From the NCBI RefSeq assembly GCF_900105925.1, contig NZ_LT629791.1:1054001-1118000 (forward strand): 64,000 nucleotides of DNA. The letters run 5' to 3'. Below the pieces are notes generated by a model that saw nothing but the letters and a program-made list of their open reading frames with translations, was not told the origin of the DNA and did not search any database. The stretch comes from Jiangella alkaliphila (GTDB taxonomy: Bacteria > Actinomycetota > Actinomycetes > Jiangellales > Jiangellaceae). Positions 9,576 to 61,108 of the stretch are shown in pieces. A program made the translations under genes and the position numbers. Positions within the stretch are counted from its first letter, which is position 1. Every line of letters starts with the position of its first letter.

Positions 9576-9667
9576 GTCGGCTCCCCTCGATCCGGGTGAC
9601 ACAACCGACGCTAGAGCACCCGTCACCCTAGCCGCTTGGACGAATGTGACCTCACGGCGCCGTGGCC

Positions 9668-9723
9668 CCATGATCATCAACCTCTTGTGCTGTGATGGCG
9701 ACACGAAAGGTTGATGATCATGG
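9668..9723. repeat. Inverted repeat with TTGATGATCATGG core
   Basis: Sixteen-base arms (9668-9683 and 9708-9723, CCATGATCATCAACCT and its exact complement) flank a 24-nt loop. It sits 11 nt after the pckG stop and upstream of the VOC gene, where a terminator would be expected. The arm sequence is related to the GTTGATCATGGAG repeats at 39.5, 44.2 and 44.9 kb. Confidence 0.8.
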
Positions 9724-9734
9724 GCGACGGGCGG

Positions 9735-11570
9735 TCACATGCCCAGGCGCGCCTTGAGGCCGTCGAGCTCGGCCCAGAGCAGCGTCGGCAGGTGGTCGCC
9801 GAACTTGTCGAACCACTCGGTGATGCCCGGTACCTCGGCCCGCCATTCCTCCGGGTCGACCGCGAGGCACGCGGCCAGCTGCTCCGCCGTCAGGTCGAGC
9901 CCCGTGGTGTCCAGCGACTCCGGTGCCGGCACGTGGCCGATCGGCGTCTCCGTCGCCGCGGCCAGGCCGTCCAGCCGCTCGACGACCCACTTGAGGACGC
10001 GGCCGTTCTCGCCGAAGCCGGGCCAGAGGAAGCCGCCCTCGTCGTCGCGGCGGAACCAGTTGACGTAGAAGATCTTCGGGAGCTTGACCGCGTCGGCGTC
10101 CTTGCCCATGGCGATCCAGTGCGCGAAGTAGTCGCCGCCGTTGTAGCCGATGAACGGGAGCATCGCCATCGGGTCGCGCCGGACGACGCCCACCTGGCCG
10201 GTCGCCGCCGCCGTCGTCTCCGACGAGAGCGTGGCGCCCATGAAGACGCCGTGCGTCCAGTCCCGCGCCTCGGTGACCAGCGGGATCGTCGTCCGGCGGC
10301 GGCCGCCGAACAGGATCGCCGAGATCGGCACGCCGCGCGGGTCGTCGAACTCCGGCGCGATGATCGGGCACTGCTCGATCGGCGTGCAGAACCGCGAGTT
10401 CGGGTGCGATGAGGGGCCCGGCGACGGCGGATTCCAATCACGGCCCTTCCAGTCGGTCAGGTGGGCCGGCTCGTCGTCCGTCATGCCCTCCCACCAGATG
10501 TCGCCGTCGTCGGTGAGCGCGACGTTGGTGAAGACGCTGTTGCCCTTGGCGATGGTGCGCATCGCGTTCGGGTTGGTCTTCCAGCCGGTGCCGGGCGCGA
10601 CGCCGAACAGGCCGAACTCGGGGTTGACGGCGTAGAGGCGGCCGTCGTCGCCGAAGCGCATCCACGCGATGTCGTCGCCGAGCGTCTCGACCTTCCAGCC
10701 CGGGATGGTCGGCTCCAGCATCGCCAGGTTCGTCTTGCCACACGCCGACGGGAACGCGGCGGCGATGTAGTGCACAGCGCCGTGCGGAGCGGTCAGCTTC
10801 AGGATGAGCATGTGCTCGGCCAGCCAGCCCTCGTCGCGGGCCATGGCGCTGGCGATGCGCAGCGAGTAGCACTTCTTGCCCAGCAGCGAGTTGCCACCGT
10901 AGCCGGAGCCGTACGACCAGATCATCCGCTCCTCGGGGAACTGGGTGATGAACTTGGTCTCGTTGCACGGCCACGCGACGTCCTGCTGGCCGGGCTCCAG
11001 CGGCGCCCCGACGCTGTGCAGGCAGGGCACGAAGTCGGCGTCGTCGCCCATCGCCTCGAGGACGTGGGCGCCCATGCGGGCCATGATCCGCATCGACACC
11101 GTCACGTATGGCGAGTCCGTCAGCTCGACGCCGAACATCGGGTTCGCCGCGGTCAGCGGGCCCATGCAGAACGGGATGACGTACATCGTGCGGCCGCGCA
11201 TCGAGCCCCGGTAGAGCTCGGTCATCTCGGCCTTCATCTCGTTCGGGTCGCGCCAGTTGTTCGTCGGCCCCGCGTCCGCCTCGTCGACCGAGCAGATGAA
11301 CGTCCGCTCCTCCACCCGCGCGACGTCCGTCGGGTCCGTCCGCGCCCAGAACGAGTTCGGCTTCTTCTCCGGGTTCAGCCGCGTCAGCGTTCCCGCGGCG
11401 ACGAGCTCGTCGGTGAGGGCGGTCCACTCCTCGTCGGATCCGTCGCACCAGTGGATCCGGTCCGGCTGGGTCAGCTCCGCGACCTCGCGGACCCAGGCGA
11501 GCAGCCGGGCATGGGACGTCGGGACATCGTCGAGATCGAGATCGGCTCCGGGTTCGGCGAACGTCGTCAT
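9735..11570 (-). CDS. pckG: Phosphoenolpyruvate carboxykinase (GTP)
   Basis: The 611-residue protein has the full length of the GTP-dependent enzyme, which converts oxaloacetate plus GTP to PEP, CO2 and GDP in gluconeogenesis. Visible motifs are the hypermobile active-site loop with P-loop [15 protein letters not shown] (about residues 271-285), substrate-binding [15 protein letters not shown], and the metal/nucleotide-binding [13 protein letters not shown] 11570 is preceded by non-coding sequence that carries no other gene. The gene is monocistronic and a 16-bp inverted repeat follows the stop. Confidence 0.97.
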
Positions 11571-29308: not shown

Positions 29309-29340
29309 AACTGCTCCTTCGTGTCCGGTCCGAACGCGAA

Positions 29341-38769: not shown

Positions 38770-39027
38770 GTGCCCAAGTCTCGCAGCCGTCGCAAGGACG
38801 ACGACTACACCCCTCCGGAGCGGGGCGAGTTCAAGGACTCGACGGTGTCCGGTCGCTGGGTCGTCCCCACCATGATCACCCTACTCGTCGTCGGGCTGGT
38901 GTGGATCGTCGTCTACTACCTCGTCGGCGACGACATCCCGGTGGTCCAAGACCTCGGCGGCTGGAACCTGTTGATCGGCATGGGGCTGATCACCGGCGGC
39001 TTCATGACCGCCACCCGCTGGAAGTGA
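38770..39027 (+). CDS. crgA: Cell division protein CrgA
   Basis: The 85-residue protein starts at GTG 38770 behind GAGAGGAA. It has a polar N-terminus (MPKSRSRRKDDDYTPPERGEFKDS) and two transmembrane helices (VVPTMITLLVVGLVWIVVYYLV and NLLIGMGLITGGFMTATRWK), the CrgA architecture. CrgA binds FtsZ, FtsQ and FtsI and helps place the septum in actinomycetes. It diverges from the DUF881 gene. Confidence 0.96.
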   Translation: MPKSRSRRKDDDYTPPERGEFKDSTVSGRWVVPTMITLLVVGLVWIVVYYLVGDDIPVVQDLGGWNLLIGMGLITGGFMTATRWK

Positions 39028-39454: not shown

Positions 39455-39528
39455 AGTTGATCTTGGAGTTGTTCGGGTACTACCGTCCCGAATGTCCGCT
39501 TGATGGCCGAAGAACTCCAAGATCAACT
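39455..39528. repeat. Inverted repeat with GTTGATCTTGGAG core
   Basis: Arms at 39455-39476 and 39507-39528 pair at 21 of 22 positions (AGTTGATCTTGGAGTT...), with a 30-nt loop. It lies 37 nt after the end of the convergent rhomboid gene, a terminator-like position. The core is related to the cobalamin-operon repeats. Confidence 0.82.
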
Positions 39529-39565: not shown

Positions 39566-40495
39566 TCAGATGACGGCGATCATGATGACGGTCGTGATGA
39601 GCAGAGCAGCGCCGAGCGAGCCGATCAGCCCCCAGAGGCTGCGCTGCTCACGCGGGGCGTAGGCGAACACCGCCGCGAGCGCCGTCCCGATGGCCAGGCC
39701 GCCGAGGTGGGCCCGCCAGTCGATGCCGGAGATGGTGAAGCTGAACGCCAGGTTGAGGGCCAGCACCACGAGGATGCTGCGGGTGTCGCCGCCGAGCTTT
39801 CGGGCGACCACGAAGAGCGCGCCGAACAGGCCGTACACGGCTCCCGACGCCCCGATGGAGATGTTGTACGGGGCCGAGACCATCAACAGCGACGCCGCCG
39901 AGCCGCCGAGGGCCGACAGCAGGTAGAGCGTGATGAACCGGGACCGGCCGAGCAGCGGCTCCAGCTGCGAACCGAGCATGTACAGCGCCAGCATGTTCAG
40001 CGCGATGTGCAGCACGCTGACGTGCATGAAGGTGGCGGTGATGACCCGGTACCACTCGCCGTCGACGATGCCGAACGAGAACGCGTCGGTGGGGTCGCCG
40101 AGGACCAGGCCCAGCCGGGCGGCCAGTTCGTTGGTGCCTGAGGCGCGGGCGTATTCGGCCAGGATCGTGTCGCCACGCGTGCCGATGACCAGGCCCATCA
40201 CCCAGATGACCACGTTGATGCCGATGATGGTGAGCGTGACGAGGTTGGCGTTGCCCTCGCGGCGCTGCCCGCCCAGCGCCGTCCTGGCCTGGCGGACGCC
40301 CTTGCGGCCCTCGGCGACGCACTGCGGGCACTGGTAGCCGACCGGCGCGGCGATCATGCAGTCGGGGCAGATCGGCTTGTTGCACCGCGAGCAGCGGATG
40401 TACGTCTCGCGGTCAGGGTGGCGATAACAGGTCGGCGGCGCGGCCGAGTCGCCACTGGCGGGCGGCCCGGCCGGACCACCGGCATTTCCGGTCAT
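39566..40495 (-). CDS. Rhomboid-family intramembrane serine protease
   Basis: The 309-residue protein starts at ATG 40495. An N-terminal zinc-ribbon/B-box-like part has CYRHPDRETYIRCSRCNKPICPDCM and CPQC. Six or more transmembrane helices follow. Rhomboid signatures are MHVSVLHIALNMLALYMLG, GASGAVYGLFGAL with the catalytic Ser, and a C-terminal DWRAHLGGLAIGTALA with the catalytic His. Rhomboids cleave transmembrane proteins; the substrate is unknown. The gene lies 19 nt downstream of the peptidyl-prolyl isomerase gene on the same strand, so they may be co-transcribed. Confidence 0.93.
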   Translation of the reverse strand: MTGNAGGPAGPPASGDSAAPPTCYRHPDRETYIRCSRCNKPICPDCMIAAPVGYQCPQCVAEGRKGVRQARTALGGQRREGNANLVTLTIIGINVVIWVMGLVIGTRGDTILAEYARASGTNELAARLGLVLGDPTDAFSFGIVDGEWYRVITATFMHVSVLHIALNMLALYMLGSQLEPLLGRSRFITLYLLSALGGSAASLLMVSAPYNISIGASGAVYGLFGALFVVARKLGGDTRSILVVLALNLAFSFTISGIDWRAHLGGLAIGTALAAVFAYAPREQRSLWGLIGSLGAALLITTVIMIAVI

Positions 40496-41939: not shown

Positions 41940-41977
41940 CGAGCCGACCGACGAAGACAGCGGAGCCGAGCCCGCGG

Positions 41978-42080
41978 GTGCGGTGGATGCGGGGATTGCG
42001 GAGCCGGCGTCAAGAGCGCCCGCGGCATGCTTCACCGCCGCGAAGCGGAGCCGGCGCAGCAATCGCCGCATCCACCGCAC
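41978..42080. repeat. Long inverted repeat at the cobT 3' end
   Basis: Arms at 41978-41999 and 42059-42080 pair at 21 of 22 positions (GTGCGGTGGATGCGG...). The loop is 59 nt. The right arm lies inside the last codons of cobT, the left arm between cobT and the convergent DUF5324-like gene. It could terminate transcription in both directions. Confidence 0.8.
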
Positions 42081-43155
42081 CAGGACCAGGCAACGTGCTA
42101 GGCGCTCTTGTCACGTCGGCGAGCGTCGCCATGTCCGTCAGCACTCGCGCGGCGGCCTGCACCAGCGGGACGGCCAGCAGCGCGCCGGTGCCTTCGCCGA
42201 GCCGCAACGACAGGTCGAGCAGAGCAGGTTCACCGAGCCGGTCGGGCAGCCTCCGCCCGCCCGGCTCGGCCGACGTGTGCCCGGCGACCAGGTAGCCGGC
42301 GACCTCCGGGGCGAGCGCGACGGCGGCCAGCGCCGCGGCCCCGGTGACGACGCCGTCGACGACGACGGGGATCCGCGCGGCCGCTCCGGCCAGCATGACG
42401 CCGACCAGCGCCGCGTGCTCCAGCCCGCCCAGCGACGCCAGTGTCTCCAGCGGTCCGGACCGGCCGGCCGCGGCGTGCCGGGCCAGCGCCGTCCGCACGA
42501 CGTCGACCTTGTGCGCCGTCCGGCCGTCGTCGAGATTGGCGCCCTTCCCGGTCACGTCGGCCGGGTCGGCGCCGGTGAACGCCGCGAACAGGGCGGCCGA
42601 CGCCGTCGTGTTGCCGATGCCGACCTCGCCGGTCACGAGCAGGTCGGTGCCGCCGTCGATCAGCTCCGCCGCGACCCGGGCGCCCGCGCGGATCGCCGTC
42701 CGGCACTCGTCGAGCGTCATCGCCGGCTCGACGGCGAGGTCGCGGGTGGCGCTGCGCACCCGCTCGTCGCGCACGCCGTCGGGGACCGGGCCGAGCCGCA
42801 GCGTCCCGACGTCGACGACCACGACCTGCGCGCCGACCGTCCGGGCGATCGCGTTCACCGCGGCCCCGCCCGAGACGACGGTCGCGACCATCGCCGCCGT
42901 CACCTCCTGCGGCCAGTCGGAGACGCCTTGAGCGTGCACTCCGTGGTCGGCCGCGGCCACGACCAATGCCGGCGACGACGGCACCGGCGGCGGGCAGCGG
43001 TGCGCGATCGCGGCCAGCCGGGCGCCGAGATCCTCCAGGCGCCCGAGGCTGCCCGGTGGCTTTGCCAGCCCGGCGTGCCGTTCGCGGGCCTGCGCGTACG
43101 CCGTCCGGTCGACCGGCCGGACCTGCTCGACGAGCTCTTCCACGGTCGGCGTCAT
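42010..43155 (-). CDS. cobT: Nicotinate-nucleotide--dimethylbenzimidazole phosphoribosyltransferase
   Basis: The 381-residue protein starts at ATG 43155, overlapping the upstream stop by 4 nt. CobT makes alpha-ribazole phosphate from dimethylbenzimidazole for the lower ligand of B12. Motifs include LAKPPGSLGRLEDLGARLAAI, VVAAADHGVHAQGVS, LLVTGEVGIGNTTASAAL, DDGRTAHKVDVV and LASLGGLEHAALVGVMLAGAAA. A catalytic Glu is present in the C-terminal block (AEPGGRRLP...LRLGEGTGALLA). The last 20 or so codons are part of a long inverted repeat. It is the final gene of the cobalamin operon. Confidence 0.95.
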   Translation of the reverse strand: MTPTVEELVEQVRPVDRTAYAQARERHAGLAKPPGSLGRLEDLGARLAAIAHRCPPPVPSSPALVVAAADHGVHAQGVSDWPQEVTAAMVATVVSGGAAVNAIARTVGAQVVVVDVGTLRLGPVPDGVRDERVRSATRDLAVEPAMTLDECRTAIRAGARVAAELIDGGTDLLVTGEVGIGNTTASAALFAAFTGADPADVTGKGANLDDGRTAHKVDVVRTALARHAAAGRSGPLETLASLGGLEHAALVGVMLAGAAARIPVVVDGVVTGAAALAAVALAPEVAGYLVAGHTSAEPGGRRLPDRLGEPALLDLSLRLGEGTGALLAVPLVQAAARVLTDMATLADVTRAPSTLPGPGAVDAAIAAPAPLRGGEACRGRS

Positions 43156-44933
43156 GCCGGCCCTCCTTCTTCGATGGTGCGTAGCGCGGCGATCAACCTG
43201 CGGTTCGTCGCCCGGTCGCGGACGGCGACTCGCACGGCGCGGTCGTCCAGCCCCGGGAACGTGTCGGCCCGGCGGGCCGCCAGGCCGTGCTCGAGCAGCC
43301 GGTCGCGCAGGCCCGGCCGGCCGGAGCAGACCAGCACGAAGTTCGCGTGCGCGTCCCACAGCTCCAGGCCGCCGACGGCCCGCAGCTCGGCGACCAGCTC
43401 GGTCCGCGACTCGGCGACAGCGGCGGCCCGCTCGCGCCGCTCGGCCTCGGCGGCCGGCGACGCCAGCGCCTCGATCGCGGTCAGGGCGAGGCTGTTGACG
43501 CTCCACGGCTGGCGGCCGGCGGCGAGCCTGCCGATGGTGGCCGGCGGGCCGACGACGTAGCCGACCCGGAGGCCGGCCAGCCCCCACAGCTTGGTCAGGC
43601 TCCGTACGGTGACGACGCCGGGCAGGTCACGACGCCCGGCCACGCCGTCGGCGTCGTCCAGGAACTCCGCGAACGCCTCGTCGACGACGACGGTCCGGCC
43701 GGGCCTGGTGAGCGCCGCGACCGTCTCGACCGGGTCGAGCGCCCCGGTCGGGTTGTCCGGCCGCCCGACCACGACGAGGTCCGCCTCCTCGGGCACGGCA
43801 GACGGGTCCAGCCGCCAGGCCCGCTCGGCCTCGCGCATGACCCGGACCACGGGGACGCCGGCGGCCCGCAGCGCCGCCTCGGGCTCGGTGAACGACGGGT
43901 GCACGCAGGCGGCCAGCCGCGGCCGGAGCACCCTGGCCAGCAGCCAGAACGCCTCCGCCGCACCGTCGACGACCATGCACTCCTCGGCGGGACGGCCATG
44001 CCTTGCGGCCGCCGCGGCGCGGGCGGCGCGATCGTCCGGGTAGGCGGCCAGGTCGCGCACGGCTCCCGCCAGCCGCTCTGCCAGCCACGACGGTGGTCCC
44101 GGCAGCACGTTGACGGCGAGATCGACCGCGCCGGGCGGCACCTGGGTGTCACCATGCTCGCGCAACAGTGGGTCCACCACAGGCGCCCCACCCCGTCCCT
44201 GTTGATCATGGAGAAGGTCGGCTTCCCGGGCGCTCGGCAGCCGACTTTCTCCATGATCAACGGGGACCGTGGGCGGCATGTCGGGCTCGAGGCGGACCGC
44301 GCGGCCGCCGACCACGAGGAGGGCCTCGTCCGCCGCTGCGGAGAGCGTCTGGACCGCCCGGCCGTGCACGTCGACATAGAGCCGGGCGCCGGGACCGCCG
44401 GCGTGGACACCCAGGCCGGGCTGGCCGGCGATGACCAGCACGTCCACGTCCGTCGCCGCGACCGCGGCGCAGAACGCGCGCAACGCCGCCACCACGTCGT
44501 CCTCGGCGCGTGCCCGCAAAGCGGGGTCGGGCACGTCGTCGCCGACGAAGACGCCGGCCGACTCGAGGGTCTCGGCCAGCCAGGTGTCCAGCGCGTCGAC
44601 CAGCACGAACGACCCGGTTCCCGCCGAAGCGACCGCGGCCGCCAGGTCGAACGTCTCCAGGGTCCGCCAGTGCGCGGGTCGGTCCGCCCGGTGCCGCTCG
44701 ACCCGGGCCTTGAACTCCTCGTCGCGGACGACGGCCGGCGCGACGACCACGACGGGACGGCCGCTGGCCTCGGCCCGGCGCGCCGCCAGCCCGGACTTGC
44801 CCGACTTCTGGCCGCCCAGCACCAGCGTCAGCCGCCCCCGCGCTGCCGCCTGCCCCCGTTGATCACGGAGAAGGTCGGCTTCCGAGCGCCCGGGAACCCG
44901 ACCTTCTCCATGATCAACGGGGGTCGGGGTCAC
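43152..44933 (-). CDS. cobU-cobC: Fused CobU (cobinamide kinase/guanylyltransferase) - CobC-like aminotransferase
   Basis: One open frame of 593 codons runs from GTG 44933, which overlaps the cobS stop by 4 nt, to 43152. Residues 34-222 are CobU: P-loop LGGQKSGKS (39-47), VVVAPAVVRDEEFKARVERHRADRP, FVLVDALDTWLAETL. CobU phosphorylates and guanylylates adenosylcobinamide. From about residue 252 the protein is a PLP aminotransferase/decarboxylase of the CobC/CobD type (LREHGDTQVPPGAVDLAVNVLPG, VVGRPDNPTGALDP, PLP-lysine in SLTKLWGLAGLRVGY, DRAVRVAVRDRATNRRLIAAL). Two palindromic elements encode residues 4-27 and 223-246. No stop separates the domains. A GTG at 44180 or 44177 could start a separate CobC. 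Confidence 0.82.
   Translation of the reverse strand: MTPTPVDHGEGRVPGRSEADLLRDQRGQAAARGRLTLVLGGQKSGKSGLAARRAEASGRPVVVVAPAVVRDEEFKARVERHRADRPAHWRTLETFDLAAAVASAGTGSFVLVDALDTWLAETLESAGVFVGDDVPDPALRARAEDDVVAALRAFCAAVAATDVDVLVIAGQPGLGVHAGGPGARLYVDVHGRAVQTLSAAADEALLVVGGRAVRLEPDMPPTVPVDHGESRLPSAREADLLHDQQGRGGAPVVDPLLREHGDTQVPPGAVDLAVNVLPGPPSWLAERLAGAVRDLAAYPDDRAARAAAAARHGRPAEECMVVDGAAEAFWLLARVLRPRLAACVHPSFTEPEAALRAAGVPVVRVMREAERAWRLDPSAVPEEADLVVVGRPDNPTGALDPVETVAALTRPGRTVVVDEAFAEFLDDADGVAGRRDLPGVVTVRSLTKLWGLAGLRVGYVVGPPATIGRLAAGRQPWSVNSLALTAIEALASPAAEAERRERAAAVAESRTELVAELRAVGGLELWDAHANFVLVCSGRPGLRDRLLEHGLAARRADTFPGLDDRAVRVAVRDRATNRRLIAALRTIEEGGPA
44197..44265. repeat. Palindromic element at the cobU/cobC junction
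   Basis: Arms 44197-44223 and 44239-44265 pair at 25 of 27 positions (core GTTGATCATGGAGAA), with a 15-nt loop. The whole element is translated in frame on the minus strand between the CobU and CobC domains. Confidence 0.88.
44853..44923. repeat. Palindromic element at the cobU N-terminus
   Basis: Arms 44853-44878 and 44898-44923 pair at 25 of 26 positions (core CCCCGTTGATCA), loop 19 nt. It starts 6 nt past the cobS stop and is translated as residues 4-27 of the CobU-CobC protein. Its sequence and reading frame match the element at 44197-44265. Confidence 0.88.
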
Positions 44934-45685
44934 AGTAGGTCCTCCTGGGCCAGCGCCACGACGACGATCGCGACGGCGAGGTTCGTCAGCGCCACCCCGG
45001 CGCCGAGCACGTCTCCGGTGACCCCGCCGATCCGCCGACGGGCGGCACGGCGCAGGCCGAGCACCGGCACGGCCGCCGCGGCGAGCACGACCGGCGCCCA
45101 CCAGCCGGTCACGAGCACGGCCACGACGAGCACGGTCACCGCCGCCACGACGGCATCCCCGGCACGGAGCCGGCCGAGCCGCTGGCCCTGACCATCGACC
45201 CGGGCGACCGGCAGCCAGGCCGCCAGCACCAGCGGCGCCGCCCGCGCGACGACGTGGCCGGCGAGGAGCACGCGGGCGACGTCGGTGAAGGCCGCCGATC
45301 CGGCCGTCGCCAGCAGCGCCACCCGAAGCAGCAGGTCGCCGGCCAGCGCCAGCGCGCCGTACGTGCCGAGCCGGCTGTCGCGCATGATCTCCAGGCGCCG
45401 TTCCCGGGTCGAGCCGCCCCACAGCCCGTCAGCGGTGTCTGCGAGCCCGTCCTCGTGCAGGGCACCGGTGACGATCACGGTCGCCAGCACCGCCGCCACC
45501 GCGGCCACCAGCGGACCGGCCAGAGCGTCCGCCACCCACCACACCGCCAGCCCCACCGCCCCGACCAGCGCGCCGACCAGCGGGAACCACGCACCGGCCC
45601 GGTCCAACCCTGGTCTAGCGTTCGCGGAAGCGCCGACCGGTATCCGGGTCAGGAACTCCACCGCCGTACGCAGCGCCGCGATCAC
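44930..45685 (-). CDS. cobS: Adenosylcobinamide-GDP ribazoletransferase (cobalamin synthase)
   Basis: The 251-residue membrane protein starts at GTG 45685, overlapping the cobQ stop by 4 nt. It has the CobS N-terminus AALRTAVEFLTRIPVG, the metal-binding GALHEDGLADTADGLWGG (about residues 74-91) and RRLEIMRDSRLGTYGALALAGDLLLRVALL. Hydrophobic helices fill the rest. CobS joins adenosylcobinamide-GDP to alpha-ribazole phosphate, the last step of the nucleotide-loop pathway. Its length is normal. Confidence 0.96.
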   Translation of the reverse strand: MIAALRTAVEFLTRIPVGASANARPGLDRAGAWFPLVGALVGAVGLAVWWVADALAGPLVAAVAAVLATVIVTGALHEDGLADTADGLWGGSTRERRLEIMRDSRLGTYGALALAGDLLLRVALLATAGSAAFTDVARVLLAGHVVARAAPLVLAAWLPVARVDGQGQRLGRLRAGDAVVAAVTVLVVAVLVTGWWAPVVLAAAAVPVLGLRRAARRRIGGVTGDVLGAGVALTNLAVAIVVVALAQEDLL

Positions 45686-47076: not shown

Positions 47077-48041
47077 CGCGCCCGCGCCCCGGCGACTACG
47101 GCGGCAGCTGCGGCCAGCGCCCACCCGCGGCGCCGGGCCAGCCGCAGAGCAGCACGGACGTCACCGGGCTCGACCGCGCGACCTCCCGCACCGAGCGCGT
47201 AGACGCCCGGCTTGGCCAGCCACACGCCCAGCCGCAGCGCCAGCGCCGCCATCGGCCAGCCCGCGTTCGGTGACGGGGTCAGCGCGGCCTCCGCGCGCAG
47301 CCGCTCCCACGACACCGTCCGGCCGGCCAGCAGCAGACCGGTGAGCCGGGCCGGCACCAGGTTGAGCAGGTCGTCGGCGCGCGCGGCGACCCGGCCGGCG
47401 TGGTTCCAGCGCGGCGTGCGGTAGCCCCAGACGGCGTCGGCGGTGTTGGCGAACCGGTAGAGCGCGGCCGCCGGCAACCCACCCACGGCGTACCAGAACA
47501 GCGGCGCGACGACGGAGTCGGACAGGTTCTCGCCCAGCGACTCGACCGCCGCCTGCCGGATCTCGTCCGGCGTCAGCTCGGACACGTCGCGGCTGACGAT
47601 ACGGGCCACCGCCGCCCGCCCCGCCGCCACGCCGCCGGAGGCCAGGGCGCGCTCCACCCCGGCGACCTCGTCGAGCAGCATCCGGTGCGCGAACAGCGGC
47701 CACAGCGCCACGCCGACGGCGACCGGCCGCAACGGCGACGGCAACCGGGCCGCCGCCCGGGACACGAGCAAGCCCGCGCCGTACGCCGTCACAGCTCCGA
47801 AAGCCCAGGCCAGGGCGCCGGTCGCCACCGCGCGCCCGGGCGGACCCGACGGCACGCGGCGCGCGGCCCAGGCGAGATACCGCCCGGTCCAGCGGACCGG
47901 GTGCACCGCCAGCGGTGGCTCCCGGAACGCGGCGTCCAACGCCACGGCCACCACGACGGCTGCCGCGGCAGTCCACCCGCCCTTGCAATGAGCACGCATA
48001 CGCACCGGTGCGTATCGGTGCTCATTGCAAAGCGCGCTCAC
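47073..48041 (-). CDS. cobD: Adenosylcobinamide-phosphate synthase
   Basis: The 322-residue membrane protein belongs to the CobD/CbiB family, which attaches aminopropanol (phosphate) to cobyric acid. Motifs are AVALDAAFREPPLAVHPVRWTGRYL, RDVSELTPDEIRQAAVESLGENLSDSVVAPLFWYAVGG, YRFANTADAVWGYRTPRWNHAGRVAARADDLLN and AGWPMAALALRLGVWL. The GTG at 48041 overlaps the upstream ATPase stop by 4 nt, as at the other junctions. In that case the first 20 residues derive from a 48-bp palindrome. An ATG at 47999 would omit part of it. Confidence 0.94.
   Translation of the reverse strand: MSALCNEHRYAPVRMRAHCKGGWTAAAAVVVAVALDAAFREPPLAVHPVRWTGRYLAWAARRVPSGPPGRAVATGALAWAFGAVTAYGAGLLVSRAAARLPSPLRPVAVGVALWPLFAHRMLLDEVAGVERALASGGVAAGRAAVARIVSRDVSELTPDEIRQAAVESLGENLSDSVVAPLFWYAVGGLPAAALYRFANTADAVWGYRTPRWNHAGRVAARADDLLNLVPARLTGLLLAGRTVSWERLRAEAALTPSPNAGWPMAALALRLGVWLAKPGVYALGAGGRAVEPGDVRAALRLARRRGWALAAAAAVVAGARAR
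47983..48030. repeat. 48-bp near-perfect palindrome at the cobD start
   Basis: Twenty-two of 24 base pairs match around the centre at 48006/48007 (ATACGCACCGGTGCGTAT in the middle, TTGCAATGAGCA at the edge). It lies 8 nt past the ATPase gene stop and encodes residues 4-20 of CobD if translation begins at 48041. Confidence 0.92.
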
Positions 48042-61061: not shown

Positions 61062-61108
61062 ACGGCCACGGAGACCTCGCCGCGAACGGGCGAGGTCTCC
61101 GTGGCCGT
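61062..61108 (-). terminator. Perfect 20-bp hairpin terminator
   Basis: ACGGCCACGGAGACCTCGCC (61062-61081) is the exact complement of 61089-61108, with a 7-nt loop. It begins 11 nt after the DLW-39 stop on the minus strand and would also end any transcript from the right. Confidence 0.88.

Follow-up and report, generated by a model that had tools for sequence, protein, structure and literature searches.

REP and BIME sequences are small, mostly extragenic palindromes that occur in many copies near the 3' ends of genes, the classical ones being mobilised by RAYT, a Y1 transposase of the IS200/IS605 type, and Rickettsia palindromic elements (RPE) can lie within genes. As described in PMC3733652, REPs are 20–40 bp long and RPE bear the end tag CGTC, and REP/BIME sequences are described as targets of insertion sequences in PMC1525189. 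Another kind of relation between palindromes and transposition is given for IS1272, assigned to the IS1182 family, which in the account of PMC5678879 replaces target stem-loops, inverted repeats of 21–85 bp, without duplication, insertion into the loop being a side path of its authors' model. Strong gene-end hairpins without a U-tract, the 'I-shaped' terminators, occur in GC-rich actinobacteria, and for Streptomyces clavuligerus PMC8269248 reports a U-lacking hairpin class of transcript ends.

Here we consider four inverted repeats within a window of 64,000 nucleotides of the genome of the soil bacterium Jiangella alkaliphila, the whole stretch of DNA that was analysed, which covers positions 1,054,001–1,118,000 of one contig of 7.72 Mb. 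They belong to three families, A, B and C, which are small mobile palindromes like REPs and MITEs and which depart from each of these classes in at least one defining property. Unlike REP/BIME sequences they are about 56–72 bp long, lack the GTAG/CGTC tag, have no RAYT match in the genus, and possess ends common to several orders of the class. They recall RPE in that three A copies lie in the inter-domain linker or C-terminal tail of a gene product (a CobU fusion, TilS and a histidine kinase), but all other A copies lie outside genes and the RPE tag is absent. As in the IS1182/IS1272 group, an IS1182-type element of this genome occupies the centre of B-like palindromes; the palindromes, however, contain no transposase and have different ends, and the element leaves a 4-bp duplication. 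In contrast to U-less terminators, one sequence is present here in dozens of copies with ends and length fixed. The C-rich left and G-rich right flanks resemble an enrichment in PMC8269248, which appears there after the account of the U-rich class. No description of the repeats was found among the papers listed in our literature searches, a body that leaves out most subscription journals.

Results

Four strong hairpins from three families

A first-pass annotation of the window had pointed to inverted repeats at 9668–9723, 39455–39528, 44197–44265 and 44853–44923. All four are present, with exact arms at 9667–9683/9708–9724 (17 bp), 39455–39470/39513–39528 (16 bp), 44201–44215/44247–44261 (15 bp) and 44853–44865/44911–44923 (13 bp, or longer if one mismatch is allowed). 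Each is a strong hairpin. Folded with short flanks included and compared with dinucleotide shuffles (n = 200 per site), the sites gave z-scores of −6.9 (9667), −5.4 (39455), −8.0 (44201) and −9.0 (44858), and at each of them 0 of the 200 shuffles folded as well. A search of the 64-kb window against Rfam at gathering scores returned four tRNAs only.

The idea that the four repeats form one common family holds in so far as A and C are related by their ends, but three families have to be distinguished, B having other ends. Family A is represented in the window by A1 (44201–44261), a palindrome of 61 bp, GTTGATCATGGAGAA..TTCTCCATGATCAAC, which lies in the CDS at 43152–44822 within the linker between two domains, and by A2 (44858–44918), likewise of 61 bp, which stands 11 nt behind the cobS stop codon and has its stem extended by CCCCC/GGGGG to 44853–44923. 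The B copy (9667–9724; CCCATGATCATCAACCT..AGGTTGATGATCATGGG) stands 10 nt behind the stop codon of a phosphoenolpyruvate carboxykinase (PEPCK) gene. The C copy (39455–39528), a 72-bp core GTTGATCTTGGAGTTGTTCGG..CCGAAGAACTCCAAGATCAAC with one flanking pair, stands 37 nt behind the stop of a rhomboid gene. Throughout the genome, family A has consensus arms GTTGATCATGGAGAAGGTCGG / CCGACCTTCTCCATGATCAAC around a variable centre, and 49 of the 52 copies retained measure exactly 61 bp. Family C has a 72-bp core with a 28-nt loop in either orientation (28 of 28 copies examined being 72 bp), and the ends of the family B palindrome, about 56 bp long, are CCATGATCATC. Because the outer 13 bp of A and C are one base apart, we regard these two families as related by their ends, their inner stems, loops and lengths being all distinct.

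Other palindromes were seen along the way. Strong inverted repeats with unrelated arms lie at window positions 41977–42081, 47983–48030 and 61062–61108, the first two at gene ends by our own gene calls. A further palindrome family beginning CATGATCATGTYCCCTGGCGGTCGC, with B-like ends and a different stem, occurs at L047:1083 and L068:1296, and a 45-bp hairpin of another class, GTTGATCTTGAA..TTCAAGATCAAC, is found at G000:C1:663905-663949 and G004:C4:728882-728926, with look-alikes in sister genomes.

Many copies with set ends and lengths

The repeats are more numerous than chance would have them: in the 7.72-Mb genome the strict A pattern GTTGATCNTGGAGN{2,40}CTCCANGATCAAC matches at 44 places and the loose pattern GTTGATCN{24,54}GATCAAC at 56, the reversed controls giving 0 in both cases (G+C of the window, 73%). 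Of the loose matches 55 were fetched, one of which (L028) is another hairpin class; with L028 dropped, together with L077 and L078, whose flanks resemble those of L026, the set consists of 52 A copies, and tests confined to 61-bp copies used 49 of these. A combined A + C pattern matches at 110 places in this genome and at 3 to 123 per genome in eleven sister species, and it has matches in 27 of 393 genomes of the class, including 12 of the 12 of the genus, with a control of 0; in a viral collection of 2.9 million contigs it matches 22 stretches. Sister species contain members of all three families, and when each window site served as query, DNA searches across the genus yielded dozens more matches, limited to the palindrome. 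A-type arms are also present in records of Jiangella aurantiaca and J. rhizosphaerae, the stretch of the latter being 91–93% identical over 1.5–2.9 kb to stretches of this genome and of the relative G007.

Palindromes ending in GTTGATC[A/T]TG recur in other genera, in at least 121 copies on 120 stretches of named genomes. Among the matches listed (80 of the 120 titles) the hosts are mainly Micromonospora, together with Verrucosispora, Catellatospora, Hamadaea, Geodermatophilus, Modestobacter, Jiangella and several metagenome bins. Fixed-sequence terminal inverted repeats, as expected of MITEs, are present, the ends being demanded by the search pattern. The pattern asks for 10-bp ends and allows 44–74 bp; within these limits, the narrow lengths found among the named copies listed, 61 bp (77 copies), 62 bp (30), 72 bp (6) and others (8), are not imposed by it. 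The motif CGG[CT]GTGTCG or its complement stands in the centre of 43 of these 121 named copies listed, where shuffling of the loops predicts 0.07. Counts of GTTGATC palindromes are also raised in G061, G078, G101, G014 and G015, of other genera and families of the class; among the copies listed, those of G014, G015 and G101, the inner arms differ (for example GTTGATCATGCAGGACC in G101).

Copies lie just behind stop codons

Two of the window repeats had been taken as intergenic and two as coding. The repeat at 44201–44261 does lie in a CDS and is alone in this, whereas that at 44858–44918 lies between the fusion gene and cobS. The fusion CDS (43152–44822, minus strand) joins a CobU domain (residues 2–178) to a class I/II aminotransferase domain (233–547), and A1 encodes about residues 188–208. 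The 3' end of cobS (cobalamin-5-phosphate synthase; 44930–45685, minus strand) faces A2, the B copy lies at the 3' end of the gene for the GTP-type PEPCK (9735–11570, minus strand), and the C copy lies at the 3' end of the rhomboid-family protein gene (39566–40357, minus strand), whose convergent neighbour on the other side of the C copy is the cell division gene crgA (38770–39027, plus strand). In the whole genome, 3 of the 52 A copies are in genes, one of the other two lying in TilS, between its two domains, and the second in a histidine kinase, in its C-terminal tail.

Measured on gene calls from our own codon-usage script, the distance from copy to stop codon has a median of 36 nt for A, 17 nt for C, 12 nt for B (8 copies) and 23 nt for the named-genome copies listed. 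A distance within 60 nt applies to 56 of 70 gene ends for A, 38 of 41 for C, 6 of 8 for B and 113 of 133 for the named copies listed. Of the A copies, 24 of 49 are in convergent gaps, as are 16 of 28 C copies and 45 of 93 named copies listed, compared with convergent shares of the intergenic bases, elements included, of 26%, 25% and 14%, respectively. Divergent gaps are rare (3 A, 3 C and 5 named copies listed). The B copies differ in this respect, 6 of 8 lying in tandem gaps, one in a convergent and one in a divergent gap. Of the 121 named copies listed, these gene-context counts leave out 24 that lie where their stretch ends and leave aside 4 in-gene ones. The stop codon of a gene can itself be inside the end of the palindrome, as it is for 11 of 52 copies in A, 2 of 8 in B and 7 of 28 in C, and for 15 of the 121 named copies listed. 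The copies thus share with REPs a mostly extragenic position near gene 3' ends and a high copy number, and with intrinsic terminators a stable hairpin shortly behind the stop codon. A U-tract after the hairpin was not found in the A copies by the base composition of the right flank, which is G-rich: T reaches 0.38 at the first base and 0.31 at the sixth and is at most 0.23 at the others. Overall, C prevails in the left flanks and G in the right ones, and a T-run is absent.

Presence and absence in related species

At each of the four window sites, a copy is present in some species and absent from others. No copy occurs at the A1 site in any of 11 genus relatives (0/11), the flanks of which are too diverged for the A1 borders to be mapped base-exactly. 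For A2, a diverged copy stands at the orthologous place in 5 of 11 relatives; the other six have none, although one of them, G009, keeps a lone GTTGATC. Counterparts of the B copy exist in 2 of 11 relatives (G007 and G005) and of the C copy in 1 of 11. At a further locus, L042, the gene end is rearranged in the relatives and offers no clean empty site.

What the relatives have in place of the palindromes depends on the site. At the 3' end of the PEPCK gene, 8 of the 9 relatives without B have another hairpin (z −2.3 to −4.3), three of which look alike, and the ninth, G006, has none (z −0.4). Within 100 nt of the rhomboid stop codon, 9 of 11 relatives reach z below −2, G002 and G008 being those with no hairpin at the C site, compared with 12 of 64 gene ends of the window. 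These z-scores come from mononucleotide shuffles, and the comparison sets 100-nt stretches at the C site against 64 window gene ends folded as 90 nt with the window's own elements included; the C copy of this genome itself scores z −0.2 in this test, as the 100-nt stretch cuts off part of it. The hairpins behind the PEPCK and rhomboid genes of the relatives indicate that B and C stand where relatives usually keep a hairpin. On inspection of the alignments, the empty sites of A1 and A2 have no obvious hairpin.

Pairing and turnover of the stems

The arms had been said to covary while the loops differ, and selection on pairing had been deduced from this. Within A or C of this genome the claim fails, the pairing within a copy being no better than that between copies; it does hold on comparing copies of other genera. 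In a set of 75 distinct copies of 61 bp from other genera, 10.63 of 14 inner pairs form within a copy versus 7.59 after shuffling, with a maximum of 8.48 in 2000 shuffles. This set excludes two Jiangella loci and duplicates, and 30 copies of 62 bp were tested separately. When the partner is slid by one to three bases, pairing of the 11-pair stem falls from 0.88 to at most 0.37. The 11-bp arms occur in 12 different versions with full complementarity. In nine orthologous pairs with 99 stem positions, 23 positions changed on both sides with pairing kept and 3 lost pairing, 20 had one-side changes and 53 were unchanged; two of the original 11 pairs were dropped, one of unequal length and one sharing members with others. 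All these statistics ignore relatedness, and replacement of whole hairpins would give an identical signal.

Orthologous places in Micromonospora can in fact hold palindromes with quite different interiors, most clearly in the pair L296/L304, where the surrounding 8 kb are 90.8% identical. Within family A, 125 pairs of copies have one inner half in common and 10 have both, where free assortment would give 2.2 of the latter; this excess means that copying of whole copies also occurs. A1 and A2 have both inner halves in common, and A1 may therefore be a local copy of A2. In G007 (L110–L121), several A copies sit inside composite repeats of several hundred bases together with other palindromes, and at L116 of the same genome a B copy is set into a composite repeat. 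The differing interiors, the singly shared halves and the embedded copies point to hairpins being replaced or recombined at fixed slots. As a separate observation, window positions 29320–29332 match the flanks of a composite repeat of about 1 kb in G007 (L114 2820–3813) and seem to be its empty site.

Transposases, flanks and an IS1182-type element

The Y1_Tnp domain (PF01797) had matches in 0 of 12 genus genomes, the control search being positive in 5 of 14 known genomes, and a GTAG or CGTC tag on either strand at or next to the ends was found in 0 of 52 A, 0 of 8 B and 0 of 28 C copies; of the 119 named copies listed, one has such a tag adjacent to an end. Within the reach of PF01797, we therefore reject a RAYT-linked REP. 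An IS91-type Y2 transposase was found in 0 of 12 genus genomes by a search whose control was without any match either, and a reverse transcriptase was discarded as the mover, since RVT_1 is present in only 1 of 12 genus genomes (G006).

Direct comparison of the flanks revealed no clear target duplication of at least 3 bp: such direct repeats flank 1 of 52 own copies (0.1 expected) and 2 of 112 named copies listed (1.7 expected). Repeats of 2 bp are in excess among the named copies listed, both direct (25 of 112 versus 13.3 expected), which leaves room for a 2-bp target duplication in these copies, and inverted (36 of 112 versus 19.1 expected); short inverted flank repeats are in excess in the own copies too.

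The end sequence GTTGATCATGG occurs 64+66 times in the genome, and at most of the 100 places listed it makes up both ends of one palindrome. It is unpaired at about 17 of these 100; of the unpaired ones fetched, five belong to A copies whose partner end is mutated and five lie inside one insertion sequence. No autonomous element or transposase with GTTGATC ends was noticed in the 75-nt stretches read at unpaired ends. The insertion sequence is 1779 bp long with terminal repeats GAGCC[CT]GTTGC and contains GTTGATCATGG once, 39 bp in from its left end, and its 538-aa transposase scores 266.1 bits against the NCBIfam IS1182 model, just below the cut-off of 270. There are at least five copies, from 100 of 130 GTTGATCATGG places listed (L415–L419; G000:C1 near 298 kb, 2.76 Mb, 4.23 Mb, 4.38 Mb and 5.36 Mb), with 4-bp duplications TGTA, GATG, CCGG, CGGG and CATG, three being enlarged by further insertions. 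In 5 of the 5 copies examined, the element is at the centre of a B-like palindrome whose outer ends read CATGATCAT or GATGATCAT; a single right end is degenerate. The palindrome ends, GTTGATC or CCATGATC, differ from its terminal repeats, so the palindromes can be regarded only as its targets. Four plasmid records matched this element, of which three were fetched; two of the three have the terminal repeat GAGCC[CT]GTCGC and none was detected in the other, and a link to GTTGATC palindromes was not found in these three relatives.

Discussion

We consider it probable, at roughly 0.6, that the three families are non-autonomous mobile hairpins of about 56–72 bp that serve as gene-end terminators or stabilisers and that have perhaps been moved by stem-loop-replacing transposition. 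The first-pass suggestion of a REP/MITE-like or terminator family spreading in the genome survives in part: the many copies, the presence/absence between sister species and the preference for gene 3' ends agree with it, but the families are three, are not RAYT-linked by the tests made and lack a clear duplication of 3 bp or more. Copies would lodge just behind stop codons, about half of A and C between convergent genes, where they most likely act as hairpins without a U-tract that end transcripts from two sides or protect their 3' ends. This role in ending or protecting transcripts we infer from the sequence. A1, inside a gene, and A2, in a possible operon, speak against the explanation as a whole.

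How the hairpins would move is the most speculative part of our model. We picture a structure-targeted transposition of the kind described for IS1272 of the IS1182 family, in which a stem-loop is replaced by the arriving palindrome and a putative transposase acts in trans, and to this we give somewhat less than an even chance. The B and C copies occupy places at which other species have a different hairpin. The hairpins of the relatives at the B and C sites fit an inverted repeat that is entered or replaced; the A1 and A2 empty sites, as aligned, do not offer one. A more daring extension, which we rate only a little less likely and think worth stating, is a class-wide guild of mobile terminators, in which non-coding palindromes would recognise and replace any stem-loop, so that gene-end hairpins would be exchanged between genes and between species at slots that persist.

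Other explanations need to be weighed against this. Ordinary MITEs belonging to a DDE transposon whose terminal repeats are GTTGATC, and perhaps leaving a very short target duplication, would account for the fixed terminal sequence and narrow lengths over many genera and for the excess of 2-bp direct repeats at the named copies listed. We nevertheless find them improbable, since no direct flank repeat of 3 bp or more exceeds expectation, bar the one among 52 own copies, and the 75-nt stretches read at unpaired ends gave no sign of an autonomous element with such ends. Immobile terminators that are alike through common descent, gene conversion among paralogues and convergence deserve about the same low weight: they would sit well with A inner halves so often being shared singly and with orthologous Micromonospora pairs identical in place and different in interior, and badly with A1, an in-gene insertion absent in 11 of 11 relatives, and with the wide range of A + C counts among the eleven sister species. 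Classical REPs mobilised by RAYT we hold to be very unlikely. They too are small palindromes, numerous, largely extragenic and close to 3' ends, and the lack of a clear target duplication suits them; the missing PF01797 domain, the missing tag on A, B and C, and the shorter length given for REPs in PMC3733652 all weigh against them.

Two further readings place the weight on the ends and not on the hairpin. If a chromosome-organising or regulatory protein recognised inverted pairs of GTTGATCATG, this would explain why the ends recur over genera despite differing stems, although the search pattern imposes these ends, and why most of the 100 GTTGATCATGG places listed are the end pairs of a palindrome. 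Such a site would need neither stem covariation nor gene-end placement, and the B ends differ, which makes us judge this reading less probable again than MITEs or immobile terminators. The remaining thought, that the palindromes are inverted pairs of a DNA-uptake-like signal, takes its appeal from Haemophilus influenzae, in which paired signal copies form terminator stems according to PMC5217627. The unpaired ends are too few for it here, and we reject it as scarcely credible.

If mobile hairpins acting at gene ends are indeed what the three families represent, mobile palindromes would be one source of the 3' ends of transcripts in a large group of actinobacteria that produce antibiotics, which would help to explain the origin and turnover of U-less terminators. 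The dozens of natural, near-identical hairpins at known positions make termination strength and read-through directly testable, and the IS1182-type element nested in B-like palindromes provides a handle on structure-targeted transposition.
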